Positions 2,186 to 36,147 of a DNA stretch of 49,273 nt are shown here, in pieces. Under the pieces are notes generated by a model. That model saw only the letters and a list, made by a program, of their open reading frames with translations, had not been told where the DNA came from and did not search any database. The DNA comes from an uncultured Deferribacteraceae bacterium (GTDB taxonomy: Bacteria > Chrysiogenota > Deferribacteres > CAMZNJ01). Made by a program: the position numbers and the translations under genes. The stretch spans positions 1 to 49,273 of the forward strand of contig CAMZNJ010000005.1 of NCBI GenBank assembly GCA_947313825.1, given 5' to 3'. The stretch's first letter is position 1. Each line of letters begins with the position of its first letter.

Positions 2186-3370
2186 ATGCAGTTGGTGAAA
2201 TTGTTCATGGGTTTGGCGAGTTCATTGGGTATGCTTGCCCTTTCGTTGGCGTTGGGCGTGGTGAGTAATCACACGACAAACCCTCCGCCACCTCCCACCG
2301 TCCTCCCCCTCGAGTCTACTCCCCCCGTGTTGATGAGCTCGTCGCCATCTTCATCGTTTGACAACATTGTTCTTGAGAGTCCGTTGTCGTCCGATGCACT
2401 TGCCACTCCTTCCACGTACCCTGGTTGTACCGTTATGGCGAACCACCCTATTTTTGAGGCGTCAAGGTCTGGCAATCGCAAGGAGTTGCTCCGTCTTCTT
2501 AGTGCTAACGTTGAGGTTGTGAACTATTGCGACAACGCTTGGCAAACCCCCATATTTTATACCTCACTCAATACGGATATTGCCAACACTCTTCTGCTGT
2601 CGAGCTATGGTGCGGACATCGATCATCAGGACGCCATGGGCAACACACCGCTAATGTACAGCATCGCTCGCGATAACCTCACAATGGTGCGAAACCTTCT
2701 GGAGCTCCAAGCTCGCACGGATATCCCCAACATTAACATGGACATTGCTAGCCATCAGGCGTTACGCTATGCGTCCAACGATATTTTCATGGAGTTGCTT
2801 CGCTACCGTGCTCCGTCGGACATACCCAACGCCAAGGGGGAGTACCCTATTCACATTGCAGCACGACGGGGGAACTTGGACGGTATCTCGTACCTCGTGC
2901 AAATAGGTTCGAGCCTCGAAGCAAGGGACAATTTTGGTCGTACCCCCCTCATGTTTGCGGCAGCAGCTGACAGGCTCGACGCCGTCAAGCACCTTCTTAG
3001 CCTTGGGGCACGCATCGACGCAACATCAACAACTTGCGACACACCGCTGTCCATTGCAAAAAACTCTGGCAGTAGTAATGTTATCGCTTACTTGACAAAT
3101 CTTGGTGCACCCGACAAAATGATTTTGACAGCAGAATCTGTCTGTCGTCCGAGTATCGCTGGCAGTAGCATACCGCAACTGACTACTGCTCCGTCGACGG
3201 ATACCGTTGTTGACGGTGCTGACGGTGCTGTTGTTGACGGTGGTGTTGCTGACGGTGTTGACGGTGGTGCTGTTGTTGACGTTGGTGTTGCTGACGGTGG
3301 TGTTGTTGACGTTGCACCCACAGCTGAAACACCCACAACCACAAATATTCCTACCATAGTGAATAATTAA
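2186..3370 (+). CDS. Ankyrin-repeat protein with N-terminal hydrophobic segment
   Basis: Multiple ANK motifs (GNTPLMYSIARDN, GEYPIHIAARRGNLDGISYLVQIGSSLEARDNFGRTPLMFAAAADRLDAVKHLLSLGA); low-complexity V/D/G tail. Confidence 0.85.
   Translation: MQLVKLFMGLASSLGMLALSLALGVVSNHTTNPPPPPTVLPLESTPPVLMSSSPSSSFDNIVLESPLSSDALATPSTYPGCTVMANHPIFEASRSGNRKELLRLLSANVEVVNYCDNAWQTPIFYTSLNTDIANTLLLSSYGADIDHQDAMGNTPLMYSIARDNLTMVRNLLELQARTDIPNINMDIASHQALRYASNDIFMELLRYRAPSDIPNAKGEYPIHIAARRGNLDGISYLVQIGSSLEARDNFGRTPLMFAAAADRLDAVKHLLSLGARIDATSTTCDTPLSIAKNSGSSNVIAYLTNLGAPDKMILTAESVCRPSIAGSSIPQLTTAPSTDTVVDGADGAVVDGGVADGVDGGAVVDVGVADGGVVDVAPTAETPTTTNIPTIVNN
3205..3315. repeat. In-frame degenerate tandem repeat encoding VDGAVVDGG-like tail
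   Basis: gttgacggtg/gctgacggtg variants at the 3' end of the ankyrin gene. Confidence 0.85.
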
Positions 3371-10870: not shown

Positions 10871-10958
10871 CACCATGTTGCCATGTTGCCACGCCGTTAC
10901 GTTGTTACAGCACCATGTTGCCATGTTGCCACGCCGTTACGTTGTTACGTTGTTACAG
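10871..10958. repeat. Tandem duplication, about 40-bp unit built from gttgNNac-like octamers
   Basis: caccatgttgccatgttgccacgccgttacgttgttacag x2, last copy with an extra octamer; overlaps the stop codon of the response regulator. Confidence 0.9.
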
Positions 10959-12446
10959 CGAGTCGGTTCCTTTGTCTCGGTATTCGTTGAGTTTGTTACG
11001 CAATGTGCGTACTGATATGCCTAGAGCTTCGGCAGCCCGTGTTTTGTTTCCGTCCGTTTTTTCTAGGGTTTGCAGAATCATGATACGTTCAGCGTCTGCT
11101 AGTGTTCCGTCTCCCATGTTTGGTTCTGAGTCTGTGTTTTCTCCAGTATCTCCAGTATCGTCTTTGTGTTCGTTTAGTTTGTTGTTAACTTCTAGGGGTT
11201 GCACTTCCAGTGTGGAACGCATTGTGTTGAGTGTTATTCCGTGTAGGAAGAGTGAGGTTTTGGTAATTGTTTCGTCTTTGGTGAGTATTACGGCTCTTTC
11301 GATTGTGTGTTCTAGTTCACGTATGTTTCCGGGGAATTCGTACGATTGCAGTATTTTGAGGCATTCGTTATCCAGCCCTTTGACTTTTTTCATGTTCACC
11401 GTTGCGTATTTGGCGATGAAGTGGTTGGCTAGGGGTTCGATGTCTCCCACTCTTTGTCTGAGCGGGGGCAGCTCTACGGCGATGACGTTGAGTCGGTAGT
11501 AGAGGTCTTCCCTGAAGTCCCCTTCTTTTATCATTTCGAGTAGGTCGCGGTTTGTTGTTGCTAAGATACGCACATCGATTTTGCGAGATTTTGTTGATCC
11601 GATGCGATCTATTTCCCTTTCTTGGAGTACACGGAGCAGTTTTGCCTGTAGGTGCATGGGTATTTCGCCGATTTCGTCTAGTAGTAGTGTGCCTTCATGG
11701 GCAATTTCGAATTTCCCTAGTTTGGTGGATATTGCTCCTGTGAAGGCTCCTTTTTCGTGTCCAAAGAGTTCGCTTTCGATGAGTGTTTCGGGTAGAGCGG
11801 CACAGTTTACTGCGACAAAAGGTTTGTCTTTGCGTAAGGAGTGTTGGTGAATGTATCGTGCGAACACCTCTTTCCCCGTGCCACTTTCGCCGGTAATTAG
11901 GATGGTGGAGCTTGTGGGTGCGACCTCTTTTGCCAATCCGAATACCATGCTCATTTCGGGGGAGGCGAACACAGCACCGTTGCCACTGGATGGGGTTGTT
12001 TCGGTTGGGGAGCCGTCCATGCGGTTTTGGTGCTCTGCAATGTAGAATGTTCGTCGCACAAGTTCTTCGATAACTTCGGGTGAGAAGGGTTTGAGAACAT
12101 AGTCTGTTGCCCCCTCTTTTATGCATTCCACAGCACTGTCTACGGTGCCGTAAGCGGTGATGAAGCAGAGTGGTGTTTGAATACCGGCTTGACGTAGTTT
12201 GCGAAACATCCCATGTCCGTCCAGCACGGGCATACGCATGTCGCTAATGATGAAGTCGTAATGTTGTTTTGTTGCTTTTTCAAACCCTTCTTCGCCATGG
12301 GAGGCTGTGTCAACGTGAATTCCCATACGTTTGATGGTTTCGTACACAGCAGAACGCATGTTGTCGTCGTCGTCCACAACTAATACCTTTTTTTTCGTAT
12401 CGTTGTTTGTATCAGTTTTGGTTTTGGTTTTGATTTTGATAGACAT
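10953..12446 (-). CDS. Sigma54-dependent response regulator (FlrC/NtrC-like)
   Basis: Receiver VLVVDDDDNMRSAV...DMRMP; AAA with GESGTGKE, GAFTGA, LLLDEIGE; Fis-type HTH. Confidence 0.93.
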   Translation of the reverse strand: MSIKIKTKTKTDTNNDTKKKVLVVDDDDNMRSAVYETIKRMGIHVDTASHGEEGFEKATKQHYDFIISDMRMPVLDGHGMFRKLRQAGIQTPLCFITAYGTVDSAVECIKEGATDYVLKPFSPEVIEELVRRTFYIAEHQNRMDGSPTETTPSSGNGAVFASPEMSMVFGLAKEVAPTSSTILITGESGTGKEVFARYIHQHSLRKDKPFVAVNCAALPETLIESELFGHEKGAFTGAISTKLGKFEIAHEGTLLLDEIGEIPMHLQAKLLRVLQEREIDRIGSTKSRKIDVRILATTNRDLLEMIKEGDFREDLYYRLNVIAVELPPLRQRVGDIEPLANHFIAKYATVNMKKVKGLDNECLKILQSYEFPGNIRELEHTIERAVILTKDETITKTSLFLHGITLNTMRSTLEVQPLEVNNKLNEHKDDTGDTGENTDSEPNMGDGTLADAERIMILQTLEKTDGNKTRAAEALGISVRTLRNKLNEYRDKGTDSL

Positions 12447-12586
12447 AAAAACACCACACACAGAAGCTTAGCACTATTATCATTTAGTGCCATTAAATAA
12501 AGGACAAGGGGTAAGGGCTAGTATTGAGCGGTATTCGATGGGTATTCAGGGTAAAGCATCGAACACAGCTGAAGCAATTTACAATT

Positions 12587-19438: not shown

Positions 19439-19846
19439 AACATATTAGCCAATTGTATAGTATATGTTATATTATCACACACCCCACAATCCCCCGCATG
19501 CAAAGGCTTTCAGCCTATTCCCCTTGCACCACCGCCCATCACCCAACATTTTATGCAAATAAAATATAAAAAAGCTTGCAATACGTGCAAAAATAAAGTA
19601 TGGTTAGTAGATATTACTTTTTGTAGTGGCTTTGCCCTTCCTTAGCTAACAGAAACAGGGCACCCACTTCAAAAAACAGATATCAGGCTAACCCACCCTT
19701 CTAATATCGATGGCTACCCTGCTAATCTTGCATTTACAACAAAATAACTACTAAGTTAAGTGGTGAAAAGCATAACACTCATCCTGTTTTTTTATAAACT
19801 TTTCATACCTGTCTTCATCACATTTAATACACTTAGGAGGTGCTTT

Positions 19847-21178
19847 ATGAGAGAAAGTTGGGGATCACAATTCGCGTTTCTAATGGCTGCGGCAGGTTCT
19901 GCTGTTGGTCTTGGTAACGTTTGGAAGTTTCCATACGAAGTAAGTAGTGCGGGGGGTGGTGCATTCCTTGTTGCCTATTTGGTAATTATTTTTGCCATCG
20001 GTATCCCGCTAATGCTTGCTGAGTTTGCTATTGGTCGTGCTGGTCAAGGTTCTGGTATTACGGCATTCGTTAATTTGGGCAAGAAAAACTGGGCTGTCAT
20101 CGGTTTAGTCGGTGTTTTTTCTGGTTTCCTTATCCTTAGCTTCTACAATGTTGTTGCTGGTTGGGCGTTGTTCTACTTCAAGGACAGTGTTACGGGCTCG
20201 CTATTCGCTCCTGGTATCGACTATGCTGGCGTATTCACTGGTCAGATTACTGCTGACCTCAGCCCCATATTCTACACTGCGATTATTACCTTTGCTTCCC
20301 TTGGTATTATTGTTATGGGCGTTCAAAAGGGTATTGGTATGTTTGCTACGATATTCATGCCCCTGCTCATTGTGCTCCTTGTAATATTGATGGTGCTCGC
20401 ATTGCGTCTTGACGGTGCCATGGCTGGTGTGAAAATATACCTCACACCCGACTTTGCACGCCTAGCCACTGCTGAAGTTTGGTCTCGTGCTGCTGCACAG
20501 GCGTTCTTCTCCATTAGTATCGGTATGGCTGTGCTGTTGACTTATGCGTCCTACTTGGGCAAAGAGCTTAGTCTTCGTCGTGCGGCTATTACTGTTTCGT
20601 TGGTGGATACGGCTATTGCGTTCCTAGCAGGGTTCATCGTAATGCCTATTGTTGCTGCATTGGGTCTCGATCCTCAAGCGGGTCCATCATTGGTATTTAT
20701 CGCTGTACCGTCGTTGCTTGCAACTATCCCTGGTGGTCAGATATTCTCCATTATGTTCTTCGTAATGCTTCTGATTGCTGCTATTACCTCCATCGTTTCC
20801 ATTATGGAGGGTGCCATTGCCATCTTGAAGGATAGCTTTAATCTTCCTCGTAAGGTAAGTATTTTCATCCTTGGTGGTGCGTTAACAGTTACATCCACAA
20901 TTGCTTCTCTATCGTTGCATCTGTGGTCGGGCTTTACCATCGGCGGAATGAACATGTTCGACTTGTTCTCGTTTGTGGCAGAAACTGTGGGCTTGCCACT
21001 TGGTGCTCTATTGGTATCCATCTTCTTCGGCTACATCATGCCTGCACGCATGAAGCAAGAGATTGATGGTGATGAGCCAAATATGATTACCACTTTGGTA
21101 ATTTGGTCTACAAGAACCATTGCTCCAGCTGTATGTTTGTTCCTACTTTACACAGGAATTACAGGCGTGCTTGCTTAG
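19847..21178 (+). CDS. Sodium-dependent transporter (NSS/SNF family)
   Basis: RBS aggaggt then MRESWGSQFAFLMAAAGSAVGLGNVWKFPYEVSSAGGGAFLVAYL; polytopic. Confidence 0.93.
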   Translation: MRESWGSQFAFLMAAAGSAVGLGNVWKFPYEVSSAGGGAFLVAYLVIIFAIGIPLMLAEFAIGRAGQGSGITAFVNLGKKNWAVIGLVGVFSGFLILSFYNVVAGWALFYFKDSVTGSLFAPGIDYAGVFTGQITADLSPIFYTAIITFASLGIIVMGVQKGIGMFATIFMPLLIVLLVILMVLALRLDGAMAGVKIYLTPDFARLATAEVWSRAAAQAFFSISIGMAVLLTYASYLGKELSLRRAAITVSLVDTAIAFLAGFIVMPIVAALGLDPQAGPSLVFIAVPSLLATIPGGQIFSIMFFVMLLIAAITSIVSIMEGAIAILKDSFNLPRKVSIFILGGALTVTSTIASLSLHLWSGFTIGGMNMFDLFSFVAETVGLPLGALLVSIFFGYIMPARMKQEIDGDEPNMITTLVIWSTRTIAPAVCLFLLYTGITGVLA

Positions 21179-28521: not shown

Positions 28522-30741
28522 TTATTTACGTCGCCCCCTTTTCCCCCTTTTTTTGTTGCTACTCTTGGATTTATTTTGTCCATGTTGGCGTTTGCCCCGC
28601 TGTTTTCTTAGGGTATGGAAGGGGTTGGCGGTTTCGTCGTTTAGGTCGCTCAGTATCATTTCTGCTTCGAGGGTTGTGAATTTCACCTTGTGAAGGCTTA
28701 CGTTAACGCTCCCGCCGACTTTGAGCTTGACGTTATCGGGTTGCACGGTAACCATCATTTTGGATTTGGATGTTTCGAAATGTTTGTAATCCATGGCACT
28801 GAATGGCACCACCCCCCTCAGCATGATTTTGGGCAGGTAGATGGCTATTGCGTGGGGTACGATTCGTGTTATGTGTGCTTCGTATGTTTTGTGTCCATGT
28901 TGTCCGGCTATGAGCTGAAGTTTTTTGAATGTTTCGCAATACCGTTGTGCTGATGTTGCCATGTCTTCGCGTCTGTTGCATGTTTCGAGCATTGTGGTTA
29001 TTTCGCTACGAGTGTACGTTGGCGGGCGTCCGTCTTGAATATTTTTCAGCAACCGATGTACGATTATGTCGGGGTAGCGTCTGATTGGGCTTGTGAAGTG
29101 TGTGTATTCTTGCGATGACAGTGCGAAGTGTGTGGTGCTATTGGTGTCGTATGATGCTTTCTGCATGGAGCGTATGAGCATGGGTGTGAGGAGCGACTCC
29201 ATGGGATGACCTTCAACAGCTTTCACCATGCTTTGGACACCTTTGGACGTGATATTTTCGGGGTTAATGTGTGGTAGTTTGATGCTGTTGAGCGTGCAGA
29301 ACTCTTTGAACGCCATGATATTTTTGGGATCGGGATCGGGGTGGATGCGGAACACGCCGTATCCGTACTCTTCGTTAATTATGTGTGCTGCTAGTTCGTT
29401 TGCTTCGAGCATGAACATTTCGATGAGTTTTTCAGCTTTGCCGCTTTGTTTTGGTGTTAGTCCGACTAGTTTCCAGTTTTCGTCGAAATAGAAGTATGGT
29501 TCTTCACTTTTGAACTCGATGTACCCTTCACCGAGTCGTCTTGTTCGTAATATTTCGGAGAAGTCGTACATGAGGTTTATTTGTTTGAGTAGTTGTTCAT
29601 CTTTGGGCAGGATTTCTTCGTTTATGATTTGGTTTACGTAGTCGTATGTTAGTCGTTGGTTGCTTGTGATTACCGTTTGTCTTATGCTCCCTTTTAGTCG
29701 TTTGCCGTTTTTGTCAAACACTATGTGTGCGGTCATTGCGAAGCGTTCTCGCCCCGGTTTGAGTGAGCATATGTCTCCTGCTAGTATTTCGGGTAGCATG
29801 TGTGATGTGTATGTTGGTAGGTACACGGATGTGCCTCGCCTTAGTGCGTCTTCATCGATGACGGATCCGGGTCGCACGTAGTGTGTAACGTCGGCAACGT
29901 GTACGTACAAGTGGTATTCCCCTGTTTTCTTGATGTATTCCAGTGATATTGCGTCGTCGAAGTCTTTGGAAGTTGCCCCGTCGATGGTGATGGTGAACAT
30001 GGCGTTGTGGCTGTGTCGTCCGTCGGTGTTGTTTTTGTGTTGGCGAATAACTTCTAGTGCTTCGTCGTTCATCTCTTTTGAGTAGCCCATCATTACGCCG
30101 AACCGCACACTTGCAATGAGTACGTCTATGTTTTCGTCAGCCATGCTGCCGAGTTTTGCGTGCAGTTTCACCTTCATCTGTTGTGAGTCGACTATTTTGC
30201 ATACGACAACGTCTCTGTCTTTGAGTCCTAGTTTTGCGGGGTCTGAGAGTGGTATGAGCATGTGCATGCCGTCTTCAAAGGGGTCGACGTAGTAGTGTCC
30301 GTCAATCTCTTCCACTAGTCCGACAATCATGGTTGAGCGTCGTTTTAGTATCTCTTCTACTTTTCCGGCTGTGCCTTCCCTTGAGTTGTGTGGTTTTGAT
30401 TTTTCGAGTCGAACGCGTACTGTATCCCCTGACATTGCTCCCCCCGTGGCGTGTGCGGGGATGAATATGTCTTCAGGGAATTGTTTTTTATCTTCGGCGG
30501 TAACGAAACCGAAACCGCCTCGTGTTATTTCGATTGTTCCTACAATGGTTTTGTGTTGTATGTTGGTGTAAGCACCACTGGTGCAGTCTATTTCGCCACT
30601 ACGTTCCATGTATTTGATGTATCTGGCTATCTTTTTTTCGGGCACGTTAATGCTTTGTGCAATCCCTTGTTGTGTTTGGTTGGGTTGTGCTTGTAGGGTT
30701 GCTTTGATTTGTGCCCTTATGGATGTATTTTTCTTTTTCAT
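28522..30741 (-). CDS. rnr: Ribonuclease R
   Basis: RNB domain [18 protein letters not shown]...[31 protein letters not shown]. Confidence 0.96.
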
Positions 30742-30829
30742 TTAATTTTTAACCATTGTTTTTGTGTGATTGTTTTGAGTTATTTGTGGGCGTGGCGTTG
30801 GTTGATGTTTCGGTTGTGTTCGGTTGATG

Positions 30830-32611
30830 TTAGGGGTTTGAGTCGTCAATCAGGTCGTAGTCTGTCAATTTTTTACGCAATGTTGTTCGTGATAACCCTA
30901 GGATAAATGCTGTTTGCGTCTTGTTCCCCTTAGTATAATCTAGTACGGCACGAAATAAAGGTTTTTCCACGATTTTTGTGTACTCTTCGAGTGCAAACTG
31001 TCCCCCTGTGGTATCGGATGAGCTGGCGAGTCGTATTCCTAGTAGGTAGAGCCCGCTGTCCATGCTAATATTTATGCCCGCATCATCGCGACCGAACCCT
31101 TTCGATCGTATCCCCATTATTAGCTGTTGAATATTGACACTGGGGTAGCCGTGAACAACATACCTGACAATACGGTTGAGTTCGTCGATGTTGCCTTGGT
31201 AGTAGTATGTTGCGAGGGTGTCCCATAGTTGCCCTTTGAGGAGGATTTTTCTCAGAACTTGCAAGTGTTTCCCTGAGTCGGTGGCATTTTCAGTTGTTTG
31301 TGCCTGCACTGCTGTGTTTCGGTTTTTCGTGTGTGTTGTAATGAACGACGCGACAAAGTGGGGGATGTCTTCAGGTCTGTCCCGCAGGGGGGGGATGTAC
31401 ATGGCGTCCATGTCGGCAAGCTCATAAATATCATTGTGGAAGCTCCCCCTACGCTTTGACGACAGTGTGGGTTGCGTTGCCTTTCTGAGGGGGGTGTCGT
31501 CCTCGGAAGGGGTAAGCACAATCCTCGGCATGGGCACTGTGGCGTGTGCGTTGTGTGCGTTGTGTGCGTTGTGTGTGGCGTGGTCATGGTGAGCGTCGCC
31601 ATCAATAGCGATGGGTGTCCCCGCAGGGTGCCTGTCCATGAACGCCATAACACGCTTCTGCAGTCGGCTACTCAGTAGGTTAACCCCCTGCAAAATCACC
31701 ATGCCAAAACCTTGCTGACATATGGCGTTTTGCATGGTTGTTGCCGTTTTGTCTGAAGAGGTTTCGGCACCGAAAACATAGTCCAAAATCCTCCCCCCCG
31801 ATACACTAGCACAACTTGCCAACTTGCCAACATTAACAATAACCGCACCACCAGTATTGCGAGAGGATTCATTCGCTCCCACGGCGTGAATGGCGAGGGC
31901 AAGGGCAGTTTTCCCAACACCCTGCTCCCCCTCAATGAGTATGTGTGTTTCGCTCTCTGCCAGTTTCGGAACCTGTCGGAAAAGTGATTTCATCTTAAAG
32001 CTACTAGTGTGGTAGTACCCCTTGCTGTAAACCCCTTCTTGGTTCATATCGATATGCGTAGTGTGTCTGTGGAATATTGCAGGCACGGTGTCTTCAGGCG
32101 TTGTGGACGTTGTGGACGTTGTGGACGCTGTGGACGTTGTGGACGCTGTGGACGCTGTGGACGCCATAATCATATTAATCGGCAGAAAATACTCCAACTG
32201 TGTGAGGGTACGCGAGTCGGCGGATACCCCACCAACAGTGCAACAAAATGCCCCTGTGAGGTATCGCTTCACAAACCCCTGAATACCTTTCGAGCCTTCA
32301 GTATTCGTTAGCATGAGAATATTGTTGCCCGAAATATCTGGCGAAGGTTTCCCCGAGCTGTTAATTACGACATAGTAGGTTCCGATTGAGGCGTTCATCA
32401 CCTCCACAACCTGCTTCCACGTCCATCGGGTGGTGTCATCCATATGGATAATGCATGCATCGCAGTGGGCACCATGGAGCACCGACAACGCATCGTCCAA
32501 CATGGTTACCACCGTTAGGGATAGGTGAAACCTCTCTAGATACGCAATTAGCCCGTTTAAAGTGCTTTTGGTTTGTGAATACAACAGAATACTGCCACCG
32601 AAAAACTGCAT
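30830..32611 (-). CDS. Sigma54-activator-like regulator with degenerate AAA+ domain and Fis-type HTH
   Basis: Walker A EGEQGVGKTALAL; IYELADMDAMYIPPLRDRPEDIPHFV; C-terminal NKTQTAFILGLSRTTLRKKLTDYDL; no GAFTGA. Confidence 0.8.
   Translation of the reverse strand: MQFFGGSILLYSQTKSTLNGLIAYLERFHLSLTVVTMLDDALSVLHGAHCDACIIHMDDTTRWTWKQVVEVMNASIGTYYVVINSSGKPSPDISGNNILMLTNTEGSKGIQGFVKRYLTGAFCCTVGGVSADSRTLTQLEYFLPINMIMASTASTASTTSTASTTSTTSTTPEDTVPAIFHRHTTHIDMNQEGVYSKGYYHTSSFKMKSLFRQVPKLAESETHILIEGEQGVGKTALALAIHAVGANESSRNTGGAVIVNVGKLASCASVSGGRILDYVFGAETSSDKTATTMQNAICQQGFGMVILQGVNLLSSRLQKRVMAFMDRHPAGTPIAIDGDAHHDHATHNAHNAHNAHATVPMPRIVLTPSEDDTPLRKATQPTLSSKRRGSFHNDIYELADMDAMYIPPLRDRPEDIPHFVASFITTHTKNRNTAVQAQTTENATDSGKHLQVLRKILLKGQLWDTLATYYYQGNIDELNRIVRYVVHGYPSVNIQQLIMGIRSKGFGRDDAGINISMDSGLYLLGIRLASSSDTTGGQFALEEYTKIVEKPLFRAVLDYTKGNKTQTAFILGLSRTTLRKKLTDYDLIDDSNP
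31548..31583. repeat. In-frame 9-bp repeat (HNA)
   Basis: gtgtgcgtt x3; protein HATHNAHNAHNAHATV. Confidence 0.85.
32097..32163. repeat. In-frame 9-bp repeat (STA/STT)
   Basis: gttgtggac/gctgtggac x7; protein STASTASTTSTASTTSTTSTT. Confidence 0.93.
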
Positions 32612-32648
32612 ACCTGAAAGCCCACCCTGTAAAATAGTAGGGCATACC

Positions 32649-32698
32649 CCACCACTGTCGAACACCGTCGAGCACCGCCGAACACCGCCGAACACTAA
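32649..32698. repeat. Minisatellite, 10-bp unit (cgaacaccgc/cgagcaccgc)
   Basis: Four or five copies between tmk and the upstream regulator. Confidence 0.85.
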
Positions 32699-32708
32699 AC
32701 TACGTTCA

Positions 32709-33518
32709 CTACTTGCCCGTGATACTGTTTACCTCTGCCAACAACCTTGCAAACACGTCATCACTACTCCCCGACGCATCCACAATCCGAACATCAACAC
32801 GGCTACTTTTGGCGTAGTTGTGAAACCCTTGTCGAATGCTTTTGTAGTAGTCCAGTCCCCTCGATTCGAACCGCCCCTCTTTGTCCATGAGGTTGTTCGC
32901 CCCTGTGGGGATTGCCCCTGTGGGTGTCTGACCCTGTGGGGATTGACCCTGTGGGGATTGCCCCTGTGGGGATTGCCCCTGTGGGGATTGCCCCTGTGGG
33001 GATTGCCCCTGTGGGGATTGCCCCTGTGGGGATTGAGCCAGCCTGTTCAAAGCTCGCTCTAAAGCGATACTTTCGTCCAAGTCGAGGAGTAGCACAAGGT
33101 TTGGTTCCACCATGCCCGATATTTTTTCTAGTGATGCCATGAGGTTCATGTCAAAGCGACCTGAGCTGTACTGGTAGGCGTATGTTGAGGGCATGCCCCT
33201 GTCGCTGAGCACTACTACAGGTTTGCCTTTGTTCTGTTCCCCCAACATTTTGGTTTCGTCTAGTTCACGGCGAATAGTTTCGTGATGGAGCTGTGCCCTG
33301 TCGGCAAAAAACAGTAGCACCTCCGTTGCGGGGCTAATATTGTCAGAGCTTTTGTTCAGTAGTATGGATCGTATTTGTGCACCTATCTTCGTGCCACCCG
33401 GTTCACGCACCTGCACAACTTTCATCCCTCTGTTTTCGAGTTCGGTTGCAATGCGTTTAACTTGCGTGGTTTTCCCTACGCCATCAATGCCATCTACAAT
33501 TATGTATAAAAAATCCAT
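32709..33518 (-). CDS. tmk: Thymidylate kinase
   Basis: VDGIDGVGKTTQVKRIATELENRG..., VREPGGTKIGAQIRSILL, LLLDLDESIALERAL. Confidence 0.94.
   Translation of the reverse strand: MDFLYIIVDGIDGVGKTTQVKRIATELENRGMKVVQVREPGGTKIGAQIRSILLNKSSDNISPATEVLLFFADRAQLHHETIRRELDETKMLGEQNKGKPVVVLSDRGMPSTYAYQYSSGRFDMNLMASLEKISGMVEPNLVLLLDLDESIALERALNRLAQSPQGQSPQGQSPQGQSPQGQSPQGQSPQGQSPQGQTPTGAIPTGANNLMDKEGRFESRGLDYYKSIRQGFHNYAKSSRVDVRIVDASGSSDDVFARLLAEVNSITGK
32902..33032. repeat. In-frame 15-bp repeat (QSPQG) inside tmk
   Basis: gggattgcccctgtg-type units; protein QSPQG x about 7 then QTPTGAIPTGA. Confidence 0.95.
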
Positions 33519-35758: not shown

Positions 35759-36005
35759 TGCAACCCCTCCCCTGCACTACTCTGCTCCCTCGGAACGACC
35801 AAGGTCGAGACTAAGCAAAGACTTTAATTCCACCATGATACCACGACGGCGTCTTAATGTAAATCAATACAATAAGCCTAAATCGCTGAACTCCCCGTAA
35901 CTTGTATGCTCTATTTAATTGTAGAATTATTTGGGTTGAAAAAACGGTATAAATAGTGGATAATAATTAATTACTGGCATGTACGTGCTGGCATACAGAT
36001 TATTG

Positions 36006-36079
36006 GGGCGGTTAGCTCAGTTGGATAGAGTGCAGGCCTCCGAAGCCTGAGGTCAGTGGTTCGATTCCACTACCGCCCG
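36006..36079 (+). tRNA. tRNA-Arg (anticodon CCG)
   Basis: gggcggttagctcagttggatagag...caggcctccgaagcctg...ggttcgattccactaccgccc. Confidence 0.95.
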
Positions 36080-36147
36080 TACCCGTTTGCGTTATTTCAC
36101 AAATAACACAACTATGTCCAAATTTTAACCCATGGAGGGTCATCCGC

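Follow-up and report, generated by a model that had tools for sequence, protein, structure and literature searches.

What the loss of the GAFTGA loop, of Walker B or of the arginine fingers does to sigma54 activation is established knowledge for the bEBPs. In canonical activators, a second loop that contacts sigma54 lies after the Walker B strand and before sensor I. TyrR has no GAFTGA and acts with sigma70; its N-terminal domains are of the ACT/PAS kind and include no receiver. VpsR of Vibrio cholerae responds to c-di-GMP. Action at sigma70 promoters without GAFTGA is described for the NtrC proteins of Caulobacter and Rhodobacter capsulatus, and for VpsR (PMC10274813). ATP binding is reported to be essential for the R. 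capsulatus protein, and hydrolysis not; VpsR, a noncanonical bEBP, does without ATP (PMC10274813).

The gene treated here lies in a stretch of 49,273 nucleotides, the window, and codes for a protein that resembles each of these in part. Like the Caulobacter and R. capsulatus proteins, it is of NtrC type, with Walker A and HTH present and the L1 GAFTGA loop absent (PMC10274813); those two proteins keep the phosphorylation site, however, and Caulobacter NtrC keeps a functional Walker B Asp, and the window regulator has neither. VpsR keeps its receiver Asp, which the window regulator does not, and no specific sequence affinity to VpsR was found. With TyrR it shares the lack of GAFTGA; instead of ACT/PAS domains it has a receiver-like N-terminus. 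The likeness goes furthest with the canonical NtrC-type regulator linked to rnr: both lie upstream of rnr, follow the order receiver (in the window regulator a putative pseudo-receiver), AAA+, lid, linker and Fis-type HTH, and have Walker A and the linker and HTH signatures in common. The window regulator differs in lacking the phospho-Asp, GAFTGA, Walker B, the fingers, the sensor I and II residues and a partner kinase. The features are as follows.

30830–32611, minus strand: degenerate NtrC-type regulator gene, 593 aa (ORF and alignment)
32258–32611, minus strand: putative pseudo-receiver domain (collinear alignment, AlphaFold secondary structure, Foldseek)
32099–32163, minus strand: STT/STA repeat tract in the inter-domain linker (TRF, period 9, 7.2 copies)
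31907–31930, minus strand: Walker A GEQGVGKT, kept (Pfam and alignment)
31742–31780, minus strand: position of the L1/GAFTGA loop, now YVFGAETSSDKTA (alignment, all-frame scan)
31676–31705, minus strand: position of Walker B, now GMVILQGVNL (alignment)
31544–31575, minus strand: HNA repeat tract, Walker B strand to sensor I (TRF, alignment with the sister genome)
31409–31447, minus strand: arginine-finger segment, both Arg gone, GSFHNDIYELADM (alignment; dN/dS 0.04)
31175–31201, minus strand: sensor II segment YQGNIDELN, Arg gone (alignment)
30944–31072, minus strand: pre-HTH linker of the rnr-linked-family type (consensus comparison)
30857–30970, minus strand: Fis-type HTH, kept, with recognition segment SRTTLRKK (PF02954 and alignment)
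28522–30741, minus strand: rnr (ribonuclease R), conserved downstream neighbour (synteny)
32709–33518, minus strand: tmk, upstream neighbour, new in the window's family only (ORF, Pfam, synteny)
10953–12461, minus strand: FlrC-like gene, canonical (Pfam)

The start adopted is an ATG, M29 of the longest ORF; the ORF of the sister genome begins at this same Met, and a GTG at 32695 is a possible longer start.

A sequence-only reading had described the gene as a pseudo sigma54-activator that retained Walker A and the Fis-type HTH and had neither GAFTGA nor Walker B, and closer comparison bears this out. Pfam Sigma54_activat matches at E 1e-10, covering only positions 4–119 of 168, and HTH_8 (PF02954) at E 1.6e-10; the FlrC-like gene of the same window, rightly taken as canonical in that reading, scores E 1.2e-72. 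In the alignment, the arginine-finger segment FREDLYYRLNV has become FHNDIYELADM, the sensor I Asn is gone (ATN to TPS) and so is the sensor II Arg (GNIREL to GNIDEL). The recognition segment of the HTH, ancestrally NRNTLRKK, is SRTTLRKK in the window's family. The same reading had allowed that GAFTGA and Walker B might be conserved and merely displaced by the repeats. This idea fails: no GAFTGA-like or hhhDE motif occurs in the whole protein or in the three minus-strand frames over 30501–32900, where the sole DE lies within YQGNIDELN. Nor is assembly error to blame, as the sister genome, a separate assembly (record CAMZNS010000045.1), has identical replacements. With GAFTGA, Walker B and the arginine fingers all missing, the known mechanism of sigma54 activation is in all likelihood closed to the protein, and ATPase activity has presumably been lost. 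An AlphaFold model of the AAA+ to HTH part, run with two sequences, reached a mean pLDDT of 33 and was discarded; putative ATP binding is accordingly argued from the motif.

At the N-terminus, the acidic pair of the receiver is gone (LDDE to YSQT, that is, DDE to SQT) and the phospho-acceptor Asp has become His (CIVDIF to CIIHMD). The first 118 residues, in a low-confidence AlphaFold model, run through strands and helices in receiver-like order; Foldseek returned mostly receiver domains as best matches to that model (E ~0.003–0.01). Against the receiver profile the match is collinear but weak, 27 and 18 of 5000 shuffles being equally good; hhalign against canonical receivers gave 2% probability, and a PDB profile search with the segment gave no match. 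That this is a degenerate receiver, a pseudo-receiver, can be held with moderate confidence. No partner histidine kinase is found at the window locus, and the kinases of the genome that match best are NtrY-like and FlrB-like ones, at ~31%. As there is neither a phospho-Asp nor a kinase, control by phosphorylation is unlikely.

A TyrR kinship had been suggested, and family scores and orthology both speak against it: TIGR01818 (NtrC, NR-I) gives 78 bits (cut-off 558.6) and TyrR 46 (cut-off 576), both far under cut-off, NtrC being the best curated match. Roughly 15–22 sigma54-activator domains occur per genome in those relatives that were counted; the protein that matches the window regulator best is, in most relatives, encoded immediately upstream of rnr. 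In a tree with paralogous activators, the window regulator joins 14 other rnr-linked regulators with support of 100/99, apart from FlrC and NtrX. Ancestrally in Deferribacterota, uvrB comes first, followed by the genes for a PBP1A-type penicillin-binding protein, a small histidine kinase and the regulator, and then by rnr. One family (f2) keeps the regulator-rnr pair without the other cluster genes; in two others (f7 and f8) the kinase is absent and PBP1A directly precedes the regulator, and in one f7 genus (g11) rnr no longer adjoins it. In the window's own family (f1) the regulator sits between tmk and rnr, and a different contig carries uvrB and PBP1A, with neither kinase nor regulator beside them. 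Judged by synteny and tree together, the window gene is the orthologue of the rnr-linked NtrC-type response regulator of Deferribacterota. A phylum-level sequence (G050, family f10) was considered as an outgroup orthologue and rejected, since the paralogue tree groups it with NtrX-like proteins; the rnr-linked locus is therefore claimed no further than class level.

Several other features of these genomes deserve mention. At 35759–36147, upstream of the row asd-ROK-tmk-regulator-rnr, is a tRNA-like sequence that shows strong conservation between the window and the sister genome. The window also holds a sodium:neurotransmitter symporter family protein (19760–21178), here in a gut symbiont, and an ankyrin-repeat protein adjoining an M48 peptidase gene (2186–3370). 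Close behind pnp in the sister genome (L032:12253–12525) is an ORF of 90 aa that resembles a detached S1 domain, with 74% identity to the S1-domain end of PNPase.

The motif table for the orthologues has 40 rows. Canonical rows come from six families (f2–f6 and f9); all 18 have the receiver DD, the phospho-Asp, DE and both finger Arg, and all 18 have GAFTGA or a close variant. The degenerate full-length rows come from the window's family and two others, f7 and f8, which we take to be the Mucispirillaceae and Termitispirillaceae; the host labels (shrimp gut for f1, vertebrate gut for f7, insect gut for f8), like the label ‘free-living’ for the remaining families, are inferred. The degenerate full-length rows number 21; in them GAFTGA is absent throughout, the second finger Arg is gone from every one and the first survives only in G020; GxxGxGK and the HTH are kept in 21 of 21. 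As for Walker B, one f8 row has DE, two f7 rows have DD and the rest are altered. The receiver domain is missing in f7 and f8 and degenerate in f1.

Two histories could produce this pattern: one loss in a gut-associated ancestor, or parallel losses. The regulator tree places f1, f7 and f8 on one side of a branch whose support, 80/78, is not firm, and the rnr tree also brings them together (95/92); all three are long-branched, and the program warns of joins between long branches. The stem of f1 is very long, at 4.34 substitutions per column, so that function may have changed further along it. That the receiver was deleted in some families and degenerated in another shows that decay was at least partly independent or stepwise. 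Genome sizes are 1.26 Mb for the window's genome (86% complete), ~1.3 Mb for its sister G001 (50 contigs, 90% complete), 2.35 Mb for a complete f7 genome and 1.6 Mb for an f8 example (~260 contigs, 78% complete).

Such features invite the idea that the gene is a decaying relic, a pseudogene in the making in the reduced genome of a symbiont: the genome is small, the catalytic parts are gone, repeat tracts have entered and the stem branch is long. Selection argues strongly against it. In the f1 species pair, full-length intact frames persist in both species at dS ~0.44; dN/dS is 0.15 for the regulator, 0.11 for its pseudo-receiver, 0.04 for the finger-lid segment and 0.10 for the HTH, and the regulator's value equals those of its neighbours (tmk 0.144, rnr 0.165; pnp is at 0.037). 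Equivalent degenerate forms are kept in three families, and in f7 species pairs the regulator runs at 0.03–0.09, near or under its PBP1A or rnr neighbours; canonical pairs give 0.02–0.05, with dS saturated in several. Low dN/dS, like that of the neighbours, marks a maintained gene: the regulator is under purifying selection, and the relic explanation is improbable. What is kept is uneven. The window regulator retains 54% of canonical-consensus positions in the linker and 61% in the HTH, its best-kept parts, and 16–31% in the AAA+ core.

The repeats have a wider setting. The sequence-only reading had the STT and HNA tracts interrupting the protein; both exist, as in-frame tandem repeats, and no canonical core is interrupted, the HNA tract falling after the Walker B strand and before sensor I. 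This position is consistent with release from the constraint of the second sigma54 loop; in the sister genome the tract is longer by 18 residues. Tandem repeats make up 6.7% of the f1 bases examined, as against 0–1.4% in other families. Since they are common throughout the genome and tmk has a tract of its own, the repeats are a genome-wide trait of f1 and not particular to the regulator. Across the whole window, L032 and L088 they take up ~5–10% of bases, many of them in frame inside housekeeping genes. The tract in tmk (thymidylate kinase, 32709–33518) repeats the unit QSPQG about nine times in frame; the tmk ORF is 269 aa long in the window and 254 aa in the sister genome. The PBP1A of the window's genome (L088:8790–11834) carries a repeated DDELLATDTAT segment inside its transpeptidase part.

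The rest of the sigma54 system is in place. RpoN was found in 40 of 40 genomes searched, among them genomes of f1, f7 and f8, and the window's genome has two canonical activators besides the regulator, FlrC in the window and an NtrX-like protein on contig C45; the degeneration is thus specific to the rnr-linked regulator. One might suppose, as the sequence-only reading did, that the regulator antagonizes FlrC; it would then act in a dominant-negative manner, damping flagellar sigma54 promoters through mixed oligomers or occupation of FlrC sites. The two proteins belong to the same broad family, and FlrC is canonical in this genome, which has 12 sigma54-type sites (1 for a reversed control pattern); some appear, on our own reading of the ORFs, to precede flagellar-looking genes (FlgI-like and sigma-factor-like ORFs). 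However, no link between the two was found. In free-living relatives the orthologue and FlrC exist independently, each a canonical system with a kinase of its own, and both lie on L035. The pre-HTH linker keeps 54% of rnr-linked-family consensus positions, compared with 18% for FlrC; the recognition segments differ (SRTTLRKK, as against SVRTLRNK in FlrC); the regulator has no arginine fingers and is not near flagellar genes. Antagonism of FlrC is very improbable.

The selective retention of P-loop, linker and HTH points instead to a DNA-binding regulator. It is reasonably probable that the window protein is a kinase-independent, catalytically dead NtrC-type orthologue that acts as a site-specific DNA-binding regulator at promoters of ordinary sigma factors. 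That is, the canonical ancestor would have been an ATP-using sigma54 response regulator linked to rnr; gut-associated families would have lost the histidine kinase, the phosphorylatable receiver and the sigma54-contacting GAFTGA loop, and with them the Walker B and arginine-finger residues for ATP hydrolysis; the P-loop, the family-specific linker and the Fis-type HTH would have been kept. The product may dimerize through linker and HTH, perhaps with ATP bound and without hydrolysis, and would serve as a repressor or non-catalytic activator. Action at sigma70 promoters is plausible by analogy with the bEBPs that lack GAFTGA (PMC10274813). The envelope-linked PBP1A neighbourhood and rnr are candidate targets by proximity only.

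A different account would make the protein a Fis-like architectural or nucleoid-type DNA-binding protein, the AAA+ part serving only as an oligomerization scaffold. Its HTH region matches Fis structures, and just three Fis-type HTH proteins, with no stand-alone Fis, were found in the window's genome; that genome is 86% complete, however, and a separate Fis could be missing from it. The constraint on the pseudo-receiver and finger-lid segment (dN/dS 0.11 and 0.04) also exceeds what a bare scaffold would lead one to expect, and this account is quite unlikely. Also unlikely is a switch in which ATP or another nucleotide or ligand, sensed at the intact P-loop, controls DNA binding without hydrolysis, in the manner of R. 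capsulatus NtrC, or a c-di-GMP analogue does so as in VpsR and FleQ. The persistence of GxxGxGK in all 21 full-length degenerate rows, while Walker B and the fingers vary, fits such a switch, as does the precedent of R. capsulatus NtrC, which needs ATP binding and not hydrolysis (PMC10274813); retention of the P-loop could, however, be purely structural.

For a site-specific regulator of ordinary promoters, four points count on the other side: the failure of the AAA+ model, the very long f1 stem with its room for further drift of function, the change from NRNTL to SRTTL in f1, and a target search that found no site. A scan of 40 loci for sigma54-type promoters around the cluster showed no shared site, and none at the regulator locus; footprinting of the upstream regions in f7 and f1 brought out no clear operator, and a scan for NtrC-like palindromes found none at the cluster.

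A broader reading can be offered tentatively, as a possibility a little short of even: that the gut lifestyle went with the conversion, once or three parallel times, of a sigma54 regulator linked to the envelope and RNA decay. The end product would be a kinase-free, ATPase-dead transcription factor, essential enough to be held by strong selection; two families would have deleted the receiver, and the third would have turned it into a pseudo-receiver. One orthologous sigma54 activator thus appears to run from complete to fully dead within one phylum, split along host association. The series lets one ask which parts of an AAA+ activator go, and in what order, while the gene is still useful, and it bears on whether bEBPs can turn into plain transcription factors. 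In Mucispirillum schaedleri, which belongs to the gut group and is in culture, a direct test would be possible.
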